A stretch of DNA of 64,000 nt from a virus: IMG/VR virus record IMGVR_UViG_3300031963_000066, positions 20,668 to 84,667 of that record; one strand, given 5' to 3'. Below are positions 58,843-63,923 of the stretch, in pieces; positions within the stretch are counted from its first letter, which is position 1, and every line of letters starts with the position of its first letter. The notes under the pieces were generated by a model, which was not told the origin of the DNA, did not search any database, and saw only the letters and a list, made by a program, of their open reading frames with translations. A program made the position numbers and the translations under genes.

Positions 58843-59484
58843 ATGATTTGTAAAATTTGTCACAAAAAAAACGATAACATTAGAAAATTGTCGAAACATA
58901 TACGAGATTATCATAAAGATATTACTATAAAAGAATATTATGATGTTTATATAAAGACAAAAACTGAAGGACAGTGTGTTATTTGTGCAAATGCAACAAA
59001 ATATTCAAATTTAGGCTCAGGTTACAGTAAAACTTGTTCAACATCTTGTAGTGCTAAATTATTTCGATTCAATTTAAAATCAAATGAAGAAAGGTATGAC
59101 AAATTTAAACAAAAAATAAGTGATAATATGATAAAAGAATGGAAAAAAAGAGAAAAAACCGGTAAAAAAGATGAAATAATAGAAAAGGCCAAAAAAACTA
59201 AAAAAGAAACAATAGAAAATATGTCTTATGAAGAAAAAATACAAAAATTTGGTTGGATTAATAAATTGAGTGAATCCGAAAAACAAAAATTCATTCAAAA
59301 AAATTATTGGGAAACTTTATATAAGTATTGGCAAGAAATTACTGATGAACAATTTATGAAAATAACAAAAAAAAGATTAAATACAATGTCTGAAAGACAA
59401 AAATCTGATTATGTTTATTTGATTACCGAAAAAGATAAAGAAATTATTGACAATAAATTAAAAGAACTACTTAACATAAAATGA
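58843..59484 (+). CDS. Double zinc-finger protein, probable homing-endonuclease relative
   Basis: This 213-residue, Lys-rich and strongly AT-rich protein has a C2H2-like finger (Cys3, Cys6, His19, His24: 'CKICHKK...LSKHIRDYH') and a second Cys4 site (Cys45, Cys48, Cys65, Cys69: 'CVICANATKYSNLGSGYSKTCSTSC'). This N-terminal pair is known from phage and large-virus homing endonucleases, in which a nuclease domain follows. Here the rest is a charged helical region with no obvious catalytic motif, so it may be a remnant, a divergent nuclease or a regulator. It overlaps gp4 by 4 bases (ATGA) and has a strong AAAGGAG site. It is the leading gene of the rightward unit. Confidence 0.75.
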   Translation: MICKICHKKNDNIRKLSKHIRDYHKDITIKEYYDVYIKTKTEGQCVICANATKYSNLGSGYSKTCSTSCSAKLFRFNLKSNEERYDKFKQKISDNMIKEWKKREKTGKKDEIIEKAKKTKKETIENMSYEEKIQKFGWINKLSESEKQKFIQKNYWETLYKYWQEITDEQFMKITKKRLNTMSERQKSDYVYLITEKDKEIIDNKLKELLNIK

Positions 59485-60545: not shown

Positions 60546-61247
60546 ATGCCAGTTTCAATTAGCGGTTTTAAATCATCTTTCACCGGCGATTTGGCCAGAC
60601 CGAATCGTTTTGAGGTGGATGTTCCTATTCCTGTTACACTATTGGCTTATGTGAAAACCAATAGAAACCTGAAATATAGATGCGAGAACGCAAATCTACC
60701 AGGTAGAACTCTTGCAACAATCGAACAAAAGACCTATGGTCCTGTTGAAAAGTTTCCATATCAAAACACATACAGTGACATTGATTTGACATTTATTGTT
60801 GATGATGATATGTCACAAAAAGTATTCTTCGATGCATGGTTGAACTTTATCAACCCGTTGTACAACAATAATTTCAGATACAAGAGTGATTATTGTAGTG
60901 ATTTGACAATAACACAATATGATGTGACAAACCAACCATCATATTCTTGCAACTTGTATGAGGCATTTCCAATCGCAATAAACCAAATGGACCTAGATTG
61001 GTCTAATGATGGTTACCACAAACTGTCTGTGACATTTGCATATACTTACTGGAAGAACAATTCTCTCCAAGGCCTTGCCATGGAACTGTTGGACTCTCAG
61101 ATTGGAAATCTTACCGACAAATACGGTGGCCTTGGTGGTACTACCAAAGGTGCTGTCGGTGCAATTACTGATAGTGCCATCGGTGCCATCGGTTCGGGAA
61201 TTGATTCGATTGGAAAGAGTGCTGATAATATTAATGGATTTGTATAA
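60546..61247 (+). CDS. Tube-fold baseplate protein (gp54-like tail tube initiator)
   Basis: This 233-residue protein has the gp19 tube fold pattern: 'ISGFKSSFTGDLARPNRFEVDVPIPVTL', 'RCENANLPGRTLATIEQKTYGPVEKFPYQNTYSDIDLTFIVDDDMSQKVFFDAWLNFI', 'FPIAINQMDLDWSNDGYHKLSVTFAYTYW'. It has an added Gly/Ala-rich C-terminal tail (195-233). It is a paralogue of gp19 (4688-5230). T4 uses gp48 and gp54 to start the tube on the hub, and this gene lies beside gp26, so a gp54-like initiator is the best fit. It starts one base after the previous stop. Confidence 0.82.
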   Translation: MPVSISGFKSSFTGDLARPNRFEVDVPIPVTLLAYVKTNRNLKYRCENANLPGRTLATIEQKTYGPVEKFPYQNTYSDIDLTFIVDDDMSQKVFFDAWLNFINPLYNNNFRYKSDYCSDLTITQYDVTNQPSYSCNLYEAFPIAINQMDLDWSNDGYHKLSVTFAYTYWKNNSLQGLAMELLDSQIGNLTDKYGGLGGTTKGAVGAITDSAIGAIGSGIDSIGKSADNINGFV

Positions 61248-61263
61248 TTAAATTGGAGAAATT

Positions 61264-61989
61264 ATGGCTTTACCTAAACTTGATGTGCCAACATACGAAA
61301 TTGAATTACCAATTTCAAAGAAGAAAATTAAATATAGACCTTTTCTAGTTAAAGAACAAAAGAACTTGTTGATGGCTCTGGAATCAAATGAGTCCTCAAC
61401 GATTCAACAGAATGTCCGTGACATACTAAACAATTGTACCTTGACTGAAGGTATCAATATCGACAAATTGCCGATCATTGATGTTGAATATTACTTCATC
61501 AATCTAAGAAGTAAATCTGTTGGTGAAATTGTGGAGACCAGATACCGTTGTAATAATGAGGTTGAAGAAAAGGTTTGTGGTAACATTATGGAAGCAAGTG
61601 TTAACCTACAGAACATTCAACCATACCGTGAAGAAGAAGTTAGTCCAGAAATTCAATTGACTGACAAGGTTATGATTAAGATGAAGTATCCAGAATTTGG
61701 TATCATCAAAGATTCTATTAACATGGATGATATTACTGAGGTGACTTTCAACTTGATTTCAGAAAGCATTGAACACATTTATGATGGTGACCAATTCTAT
61801 TATGCACATGAGGCCGAACCAGGTGAAATGTTGGAGTTTGTTGAAGGTCTGAATCAGGCCCAATTTGAAAAGGTTGAACACTTCTTTAATAACTTACCAA
61901 AGTTAAAAGAAACTGTTGAGATGACTTGTAGTAAATGTGGTTTTCATCACACGATTGATGTAGAAGGTCTCGAAAATTTTTTCGGTTGA
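61264..61989 (+). CDS. gp26: gp26-family baseplate hub subunit
   Basis: This 241-residue protein (T4 gp26: 208) has the T4_baseplate (gp26/gp51) family opening 'VPTYEIELPISKKKIKYRPFLVKEQKNLLMALES' and 'YFFINLRSKSVGEIV'-type stretches. Two Cys pairs, Cys96/Cys105 and Cys222/Cys225 ('MTCSKCGFHH'), look like a zinc site. gp26 assists hub assembly. The final codons GAA AAT TTT TTC GGT TGA contain slippery heptamers, and the -1 frame continues as the next ORF, so a longer gp26 fusion may be made. GGAG precedes the ATG. Confidence 0.92.
   Translation: MALPKLDVPTYEIELPISKKKIKYRPFLVKEQKNLLMALESNESSTIQQNVRDILNNCTLTEGINIDKLPIIDVEYYFINLRSKSVGEIVETRYRCNNEVEEKVCGNIMEASVNLQNIQPYREEEVSPEIQLTDKVMIKMKYPEFGIIKDSINMDDITEVTFNLISESIEHIYDGDQFYYAHEAEPGEMLEFVEGLNQAQFEKVEHFFNNLPKLKETVEMTCSKCGFHHTIDVEGLENFFG
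61974..61983 (+). promoter_or_regulatory. Putative programmed -1 frameshift site
   Basis: In the gp26 reading frame the sequence is A AAT TTT TTC, containing two overlapping canonical X-XXY-YYZ heptamers (AAATTTT and TTTTTTC). The -1 frame has no stop from 61959 to the end of the 61-residue ORF at 62171. The gp26 stop comes 3 bases after the slip site. This arrangement is like the G/GT tail chaperones of lambda. Confidence 0.65.
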
Positions 61990-62171
61990 CGCTGCGTCAC
62001 GATAACTTGAGGAATTATTACAAAACTAATTTCTCTTTGATGCAGCATCACAAATACAGTTTGACAGAATTAGAAGCTATGTTGCCATGGGAAAGAGATA
62101 TCTATGTCTCTATGTTGATTCAGTATATTGAGGAAGAAAATCAAAAAATAAGAGAACGACAAAAGAGATAA
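61986..62171 (+). CDS. Small helical hub-assembly ORF in the -1 frame of gp26 (gp51 position)
   Basis: It has 61 codons if read from the TTG at 61986; the only other in-frame start is an ATG at 62041. Neither has a ribosome site. The protein ('LRNYYKTNFSLMQHHKYSLTELEAMLPWERDIYVSMLIQYIEEENQKIRERQKR') is helical. From memory it resembles short ORFs after gp26 in cyanophages, whose 'HHKWSLTELE.L.P.ERDIYV.ML' pattern recalls tail chaperone C-termini. It is probably expressed at least partly as a gp26 extension through frameshifting. It occupies the place of T4 gp51 but is far shorter. Confidence 0.7.
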   Translation: MTLRHDNLRNYYKTNFSLMQHHKYSLTELEAMLPWERDIYVSMLIQYIEEENQKIRERQKR

Positions 62172-63923
62172 ATGGCAAGAGACAACAGTAAGGATGTTAC
62201 TCATCAACAAACGATGAGTAAATTGTCCGAAAAATCAAAACAAACTTCAGCTTCATTGCTGAATTCCACCAAGGCCACACCTAAGGCTCTTGCGGATAGT
62301 GGCGACATGGATGGTGTTCTCGGTCAAATTTATCAGTTAATGGTTGATAATCGCAAAGATGAATTAGAACAAAGACAAATAGACGAAAAGAATAGTAAAA
62401 CCGATACCAGAAAAGAAGAAAGTCGCCATCAAGAATTGTTGAAGGCGTTAACGGTTCGTAGAAGACCAAAGCCTAAGAGGGTCATTCGCCGTGAGAAAAA
62501 GGCGGAAGAAAAAGAAGCAGCTAAACCAACTACACCGGCCAAAAAGCCAGCAGAAGCGGCCAAAAAGCCAGCTGAAGCGGCTAAGAAACCACCTGAGCCG
62601 GCTAAAAAGCCACCAGAACCAGCTAAGAAACCAGCAGAAGATACTGCTAAAAAGGCTGCCGAAGATAAAGCCAAGAAGGCTGCTGAAGATAAGGCTAAAA
62701 AAGAAGCTGAAGATAGAGCTAAAAAGGCTGCCGAAGATAAAGCCAAGAAGGCTGCTGAGGATAGAGCTAAAAAAGAAGCTGAAGATAAAGCCAAGAAGGC
62801 TGCTGAGGATAAGGCTAAACGAGAAGCTGAGGATAAGGCTAAAAAAGAAGCTGAGGATAGAGCCAAGAAGGCTGCTGAGGATAAGGCTAAAAAGTCTGCT
62901 GAACAGGTTAAACCACCTGAAGTTAAACCGCCACCAAAAGCTGAACAGGTTAAACCACCTGAAGTTAAACCGCCACCAAAAGCAGAAGCTGCACCTGCGG
63001 CACCAAAGCCAGCTCAAGTGAAGCCGCCGCCAAAAGCTGAACAAGTAAAACCTCCACCAAAAGCACCAACTACTAAAATTCCTCCAATTTCAGGTGGAAA
63101 AGGTGTAGTTATTGCTGCATTATTGGCTGCTGGGTTATCAGCAAAAGCTCAAGCAAATGTATTAGCACAAGTCGAAGCAGAATCAAATTTTGTTCCGAAA
63201 AGTGAAGATTTATACTATTCAGCCGATGGCTTGGCGAATACATGGCCAAATAGATTTGGCCAAAAAGGACCTGACGGTAAACTTTTAAAGGATAAAAATA
63301 ACAGAGTTTTACCAAATCAAATAGCGACAGATATAGCAAAAAATCCAGAAAAAATTGCTGAAGCTGTTTATGGAAAAAGAAAAGATTTGGGTAACACTGC
63401 TGACGGCGATGGTTTTAAGTATAGAGGACGAGGTTTTTTACAAATTACAGGAAAAGATGCATACAAATCTTTAGGTGATTATATTGGTGTAGATTTAGTA
63501 GGTGATCCAGATAAATTAAATGAAATTTCTGTTGCCGCAAAATCTATTCCTTGGTTCTTTTTAAAATATAAAGGATATCTGATTAAAAAACCACAAGATT
63601 TGGAAAATATAGGAACAGTTAGTAAAGCGGTTGGATTTCAAGATAAAAAATTAAAATCGGGTGAAATGGAATCAGAACATCGAGCAAAATTAGCTGAGAA
63701 ATATCAAGCTGAAGTTTCATCTACACCCGTGCCAAGTTCTGATACTGGTACCAAAGTTGACCAATCATCTAAAGAAAATGCAGACCTGAAAGAAAAGTTA
63801 AATAAAGATAAGTCGGCTCAAACAACGAACAATACCACTACGACAAACAACCAGACAAACAATGTTAAACCTGAACAAAAGGTTGACGATAGACCACCTT
63901 ATGCAAGAAAGCAACAACAATAA
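62172..63923 (+). CDS. GH19-type lysozyme with TolA-like helical linker (tail-associated)
   Basis: This 583-residue protein has a helical N-terminal region (1-110, 'GVLGQIYQLMVDNRKDELEQRQIDEKNSKTDTRKEESRHQELLKAL'). A Pro/Ala/Lys linker (111-153) is followed by about eleven copies of an 8-residue AKKAAEDK repeat (154-243), like the TolA helix, and a KPPPKAEQV proline-rich stretch (243-300). A GH19 lysozyme/chitinase domain (about 308-505) follows. Its likely catalytic residues are Glu337 (QVEAESNF) and Glu345 (KSEDLYYSADGLANTWPNRF); 'YRGRGFLQITGKDAYKSLGDYIG.DLVGDPD' is diagnostic. The Asn/Thr-rich tail is disordered. It directly follows the gp26 hub genes (TAA-ATG), so a tail-borne peptidoglycan hydrolase is more likely than a lysis endolysin. 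Confidence 0.87.
   Translation: MARDNSKDVTHQQTMSKLSEKSKQTSASLLNSTKATPKALADSGDMDGVLGQIYQLMVDNRKDELEQRQIDEKNSKTDTRKEESRHQELLKALTVRRRPKPKRVIRREKKAEEKEAAKPTTPAKKPAEAAKKPAEAAKKPPEPAKKPPEPAKKPAEDTAKKAAEDKAKKAAEDKAKKEAEDRAKKAAEDKAKKAAEDRAKKEAEDKAKKAAEDKAKREAEDKAKKEAEDRAKKAAEDKAKKSAEQVKPPEVKPPPKAEQVKPPEVKPPPKAEAAPAAPKPAQVKPPPKAEQVKPPPKAPTTKIPPISGGKGVVIAALLAAGLSAKAQANVLAQVEAESNFVPKSEDLYYSADGLANTWPNRFGQKGPDGKLLKDKNNRVLPNQIATDIAKNPEKIAEAVYGKRKDLGNTADGDGFKYRGRGFLQITGKDAYKSLGDYIGVDLVGDPDKLNEISVAAKSIPWFFLKYKGYLIKKPQDLENIGTVSKAVGFQDKKLKSGEMESEHRAKLAEKYQAEVSSTPVPSSDTGTKVDQSSKENADLKEKLNKDKSAQTTNNTTTTNNQTNNVKPEQKVDDRPPYARKQQQ
62643..62900 (+). repeat. 24-bp coding repeat array (AKKAAEDK octapeptides)
   Basis: About eleven in-frame copies of an 8-codon unit encoding AKK(A/E)AED(K/R). 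Alternating Lys and Glu at i and i+4 spacing would stabilise a single long alpha helix of roughly 90 residues. The DNA units are near-identical (gctgaggataaggctaaa type), allowing length change by slippage. Confidence 0.92.

Follow-up and report, generated by a model that had tools for sequence, protein, structure and literature searches.

The window analysed here, a 64,000-nucleotide stretch of an 84,667-base IMG/VR virus record, carries on its plus strand a gp26 gene (61264-61989, 241 aa) whose 3' end reads GAA AAT TTT TTC GGT TGA, in agreement with what an earlier sequence-only reading of this DNA had stated. The gp26 product matched PF12322 (T4_baseplate, E 1.2e-56) in Pfam and phrog_150 (baseplate hub, E 5.9e-62) in PHROG, and its nearest named relatives at the protein level were Synechococcus myoviruses with approximately 40% identity, while those of the product encoded in the overlapping -1 frame were a Pelagibacter phage and cyanophages with 60-70% identity. 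Synteny placed the upstream neighbour in the slot annotated as gp54 in S13 and Aeh1. The 583-aa protein encoded downstream contains a long Lys/Ala/Glu and Pro-rich repeat (62500-62980) followed by a GH19/endolysin-like region. In addition, a 213-aa ORF whose start is C2H2-like (MICKICHKKNDNIRKLSKHIRDYH) was found between the gp48 and gp4 genes (58843-59484, plus strand); it matched no PHROG family and no Pfam family above the cutoff, and may represent a mobile nuclease-like insertion. Neither the Rfam scan nor the tRNA scan of the window returned a match. The features of the locus are as follows.

60546-61247, plus strand: tail-tube-family gene directly 5' of gp26 (phrog_45, E 4.1e-46; PF23849; synteny)
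61264-61989, plus strand: gp26, zero-frame product, putative short tail-assembly-chaperone form (PF12322, phrog_150, AlphaFold model)
61962-61967, plus strand: Shine-Dalgarno (SD)-like AGAAGG, which contains GAAGG, candidate 5' stimulator, 9 nt 5' of the heptamer (anti-SD pairing trough)
61977-61983, plus strand: slippery heptamer T_TTT_TTC, predicted -1 shift site (in-phase conservation, synonymous constraint)
61983-62171, plus strand: gp51-like C-terminal extension, encoded in the -1 frame and contributing 62 aa to the predicted fusion (phrog_634; stop at 62169-62171)
61987-61989, plus strand: TGA stop of gp26 in the zero frame, located one codon past the heptamer
61991-61999, plus strand: 5' arm GCTGCGTCA of the predicted downstream stem, 7 nt past the heptamer (MFE -21.5 kcal/mol for 80 nt)
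62009-62035, plus strand: predicted inner hairpin in the stem loop, GAGGAATTA / TAATTTCTC (MFE fold)
62038-62046, plus strand: 3' arm TGATGCAGC of the predicted downstream stem (MFE fold, covariation)
62172-63923, plus strand: following gene, beginning right at the extension stop (TAAATG); its 583-aa product is rich in repeats and includes an endolysin/GH19-like region

The sequence-only reading had proposed that a programmed -1 frameshift joins gp26 to a conserved-looking segment in a frame that is stop-free from 61959. The frames can be read directly: the -1 frame is indeed open from 61959, immediately after a TGA at 61956-61958, and runs to the TAA at 62169-62171. A -1 slip after TTC would join ...ENFFRLTLRHDNL... 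and give a product of 302 aa. Two PHROG families were matched by the -1 frame: phrog_634 ('baseplate hub assembly catalyst') with an E value of 1.5e-30, and phrog_150 at its end (positions 229-276). The latter match suggests that some phrog_150 members hold both parts in one chain.

For the comparative analysis, loci were collected from named phages and from two viral-contig scans with gp26 and the -1 frame as queries, together with two further scans using gp26 protein queries from which the junction had been removed; narrower scan queries were chosen because an alignment of nine distant gp26 proteins contained no conserved stretch. This yielded 319 loci in total with a readable gp26 stop. A gp51-domain profile detected the domain in the -1 frame at all 319 loci, a direct observation that bears out the supposed conservation of the segment. 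Counted by codon position in the -1 frame, differences between 66 relatives and the window over the 171 nt past the slip numbered 547 (first), 235 (second), and 1768 (third), and at every locus the -1 frame was stop-free while both other frames contained a stop, indicating that the -1 frame is under purifying selection.

Two overlapping heptamers had been noted at the end of gp26, and both A_AAT_TTT (61974-61980) and T_TTT_TTC (61977-61983) do lie in the X_XXY_YYZ phase, but conservation was found for the second only. A_AATTTT was rejected as a slip site because its AAT codon is exchanged for AGT, GAT, or TCT in relatives. In-phase T_TTT_TTN was observed at the same place in 316 of the 319 loci, including loci recovered with the junction-free queries, and was kept in 128 of 131 gp26 clusters at 80% identity and in 52 of 54 at 60% identity. 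Among the 131 clusters, 95 carried T_TTT_TTC, 30 carried T_TTT_TTT, two ended in G, one ended in A, and three lacked the heptamer. Without exception, the Phe pair in the 128 clusters with the heptamer began with TTT and was preceded by a codon ending in T, compared with 75% for each elsewhere in gp26, and only 9 of 124 other Phe-Phe pairs within gp26 were written T_TTTTTY. Furthermore, heptamer codons 238 and 239 ranked first and second of 184 gp26 columns in excess synonymous conservation, so that the programmed -1 frameshift read from the window alone gains support from its relatives. The gp26 stop was located 0, 1, 3, or 8 codons past the heptamer in relatives, and in two clusters the stretch bounded by the upstream -1-frame stop and the end of the zero-frame stop measured 10 nt only; any join there must therefore fall at the heptamer. 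These analyses confirmed that the conservation of the heptamer is far beyond chance, without an exact probability being claimed, as the clusters are not fully independent.

No close relative was found in which the heptamer had been silently changed with both ORFs kept, and the three loci lacking it were two Ackermannviridae (L165 and L168) and Vibrio phage D504 (L169). In these loci and in L330-L333, gp51 still lies in the -1 frame, with (A/G/C)TT TTC in place of T_TTT_TTN. Ackermannviridae gp26 ends in (A/G)TT TTC, and Serratia phage 2050H1 (Ackermannvirus) has G_GTT_TTC, the T7 gene 10 type, at the homologous place. The junction reads TAATG in members of Agtrevirus and Limestonevirus, and Vi01, K5lambda5, and 2050H1 have no start there; Vi01 and K5lambda5 also lack a canonical heptamer. 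By their sequences, Vi01, K5lambda5, and 2050H1 may frameshift too, or may not. As for annotation, gp26 and gp51 are given as two genes in most records. A separate short gp51 gene is annotated in S-PM2 (L001), Mosig (L159), and Sf-CH8 (L002), in the latter two from an internal ATG (43-44 aa) with loss of the conserved N-terminal part, and gp51 is unannotated in S-WAM1 (L160) and Vi01 (L333).

Potential stimulators were found on both sides of the heptamer. Anti-SD pairing peaked at 8-mers starting 16 nt before TTT, with a mean of -5.5 kcal/mol against a background of -0.3 kcal/mol, and an SD-like 4-mer was present at that offset in 103 of 128 clusters compared with 6 and 8 of 128 in control windows. 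Pairing was stronger than in synonymous-codon controls in 95 of 128 clusters; the Glu-Gly encoded under the element is itself conserved, and the SD signal thus partly reflects protein constraint. On the 3' side, where the sequence-only reading had noted no stem, the predicted folding z-score just past the heptamer was about -1.9, compared with about -0.3 elsewhere (52 clusters). Of the 128 clusters, only 11 had the 9-bp stem predicted in the window at the same offsets, ten of them with all nine pairs and the 11th with eight. Its two arms showed compensatory changes (TGTCA/TGATA, AACCA/TGGTT, AGTCA/TGGCT, and AGTTA/TAACT), and when the arms were slid, no more than one cluster reached 8 or more pairs, while pairing the arms of different sequences produced a run of six in an average of 2.6. 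Helices at any position immediately 3' of the heptamer numbered 27, not clearly above codon-shuffled sequences (mean 17, maximum 29), and the argument is therefore carried by the position-specific stem and the z-score profile. RNAalifold over all lineages gave no consensus downstream structure; the S-PM2 and S-WAM1 lineages have different hairpins, and other lineages have none. Both elements are thus present as sequence features, the stem being lineage-specific, and both are candidate stimulators.

The comparison with T4 was also informative on the nature of the products. T4 has separate gp26 and gp51 genes, as the sequence-only reading had stated, whereas the equation of T4 gp51 with the small ORF alone did not hold, since gp51 matches the whole fusion. 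Residues 15-249 of T4 gp51 (249 aa) were observed to align across the junction with the fusion profile (HMM E 8.6e-14; HHalign 99.5%, E 2.2e-23), and T4 gp26 aligned with the N-part (HHalign 99.7%, E 1.8e-25) in an alignment ending just past Phe-Phe; T4 therefore encodes the short and long forms as separate genes. This homology indicates that T4 gp51 is the counterpart of the whole fusion and gene 51 a stand-alone copy of it. Within the T4 family, gp26 and gp26-51 would then correspond to lambda G and GT, which suggests that the protein long referred to as a 'catalyst', gp51, represents the long form of the chaperone. Passages of PMC3004832 list T4 gp26 and gp51 as hub assembly chaperones and describe gp51 as required yet absent from the finished particle, and in the record of Acinetobacter phage Berthold both proteins are named 'tape measure protein assembly chaperone'. 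The AlphaFold model of gp26 had a pLDDT of 88, and the HK97 chaperone 2ob9 took ranks 1 and 2 in the PDB fold search, with E values of 2.6-2.9 and probabilities of 0.33 and 0.23, which are not significant. The putative chaperone role is based on homology together with a fold match with E > 1. A PDB sequence search with the fusion found nothing relevant.

The conserved in-phase heptamer, the open -1 frame, and the missing start codon are together what programmed -1 frameshifting predicts, and the comparative data support that prediction. Expression of gp51 as a separate gene, through coupled termination-reinitiation at the TTG at 61986 or through an internal ATG, would be consistent with the overlap of this TTG with the gp26 stop (TTGA) in the window, with the TAATG or TGATG junctions of ValKK3, Rhizobium, and several Ackermannviridae phages, and with the separate annotation of gp51 in many records. 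The TTG, which had been singled out as the only nearby start, is indeed present, but it is TTA in most relatives of 73-82% identity, the nearest diverged ones, and was for this reason ruled out as a conserved start. Initiation at the internal ATG would remove the conserved N-terminal part of the gp51 extension, and the SD-like element, 18 nt away from the TTG, is too distant to serve initiation there. Moreover, an independent start in homologues was absent in 102 of 128 clusters, whose -1 frame contains no ATG, GTG, or TTG before the slip or within the six codons that follow it. Reinitiation also leaves the invariant TTT and the preferred TTC at the site unexplained, and does not fit the inclusion of the gp26 part in T4 gp51. 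As such, a separately initiated gp51 is considered improbable as the general explanation. Among the distant lineages, in ValKK3 and the Rhizobium phages, where the T run is combined with TAATG or TGATG at the junction, and in S-N03, where it is followed by an ATG shortly past the gp26 stop, this -1-frame ATG could start a separate gp51, and reinitiation could operate alongside frameshifting.

The fusion might also arise from transcriptional slippage, given that the site is a T run. Bacterial polymerase slips efficiently at runs longer than six T's, whereas the run here is mostly six T's only, and its codon phase is always fixed with C next in most clusters, a pattern predicted by tandem tRNA slippage but not required by the polymerase. 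Slippage during transcription is thus judged still less probable than reinitiation. A T run beside a stop codon would likewise suit a -1 ORF that is only a decayed remnant, or a single continuous gene whose frame was broken by a sequencing error, but the same frame relation recurs in 319 of 319 loci from independent assemblies and isolates and the -1 frame bears the marks of purifying selection, so that this explanation retains next to no probability and is refuted by the comparative data.

Taken together, the gp26-gp51 locus of this T4-like myovirus is very probably a tail-assembly-chaperone gene expressed by programmed -1 frameshifting. Most ribosomes would translate gp26 and terminate at 61989, while a fraction would pause at T_TTT_TTC (61977-61983), aided by the GAAGG 9 nt 5' and the stem 7 nt 3' of it. 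The Phe-tRNAs occupying the P and A sites would then both slip back by one base onto TTT TTT, and reading of the -1 frame to 62171 would give the 302-aa gp26-gp51 fusion. We infer that slippage takes place, and likewise its rate and the part played by the two stimulators. The short and long forms may act on the tape measure and the hub during tail assembly, like lambda gpG and gpGT. In addition, the next gene begins at the end of the extension (62169-62174 in the window, and likewise in relatives), with its start -30 to +5 nt from the gp51 stop in 92 of 121 clusters; therefore, only shifted ribosomes would reach that start, and a second effect of the frameshift on translation of the next gene is possible.

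Frameshifted tail chaperones, including those of some T4 relatives, are already known. Vladimirov, Gautam and Davidson (2022), as cited in PMC10885494/PMC10274946 and PMC12846349, treated the T4-like tail assembly chaperones gp26/gp51; papers citing that work mention short and long chaperones in T4-like phages as well as poly-T shift sites, and PRFect (PMC10274946) cites it for T4-like phages with a short gene plus a separate fused long gene. In the literature examined, no description was found of the signal made up of SD-like element, heptamer, and covarying stem, of the statistics at codon level, or of the next-gene start at the extension end (92/121). The present study adds strong nucleotide-level evidence that gp26 and gp51 form one frameshifted gene in cyanophage-like, Pelagibacter-phage-like, Vibrio, Aeromonas, and Rhizobium T4 relatives. 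More tentatively, and as a less likely generalization, a single three-part cassette (SD-like element, T_TTT_TTC, and a lineage-specific stem) could set the chaperone ratio in most T4-related lineages outside T4. Because the next gene begins at the extension end in most lineages, its translation would also be governed by the shift rate, and T4 genes 26 and 51 could represent a later duplication that replaced the frameshift.

Several known systems resemble this arrangement in part. The E. coli dnaX cassette similarly combines an upstream SD-like element, a tandem slippery heptamer, and a downstream stem-loop. It differs in that its shift gives the short product, whereas the long one is made here, and in using A_AAA_AAG as opposed to U_UUU_UUC; its features are described in part in PMC5009743. 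The tail assembly chaperone of phage Adele (Vandenendeviridae/Andersonviridae; PMC12846349) shares a conserved -1 frame extension and a poly-T slip site, although its motif is GTTTTT, not T_TTT_TTC, and it belongs to a separate phage lineage. In T7 gene 10 (G_GUU_UUC, with X_XX given as G_GU in PMC5009743), the slip is likewise on Phe UUC, and Serratia phage 2050H1 carries the corresponding G_GTT_TTC, but the T7 gene encodes a coat protein, and the window and most relatives carry T_TTT_TTC.

For lambda gpG/gpGT, the likeness lies in a short protein with a frameshift-extended long one, a shift near the end of the first ORF, and an adjoining tail-tube-family gene. The lambda heptamer, G_GGA_AAG, is a different one, and sequence similarity is not expected. 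Of the lambda-type placement between tail tube and tape measure genes, only the upstream tail-tube-family gene was found; in contrast to the lambda layout, the next gene is unlike a tape measure gene and encodes an endolysin-domain protein. In T4, gp26 and gp51 are separate genes in opposite orientation, whereas here one gene with its -1 frame would give both forms. The G/GT frameshift has been described as conserved in long-tailed phages 'except T4' (in a passage of PMC5009743), and the present result qualifies this view of T4-type phages as the exception to G/GT frameshifting.
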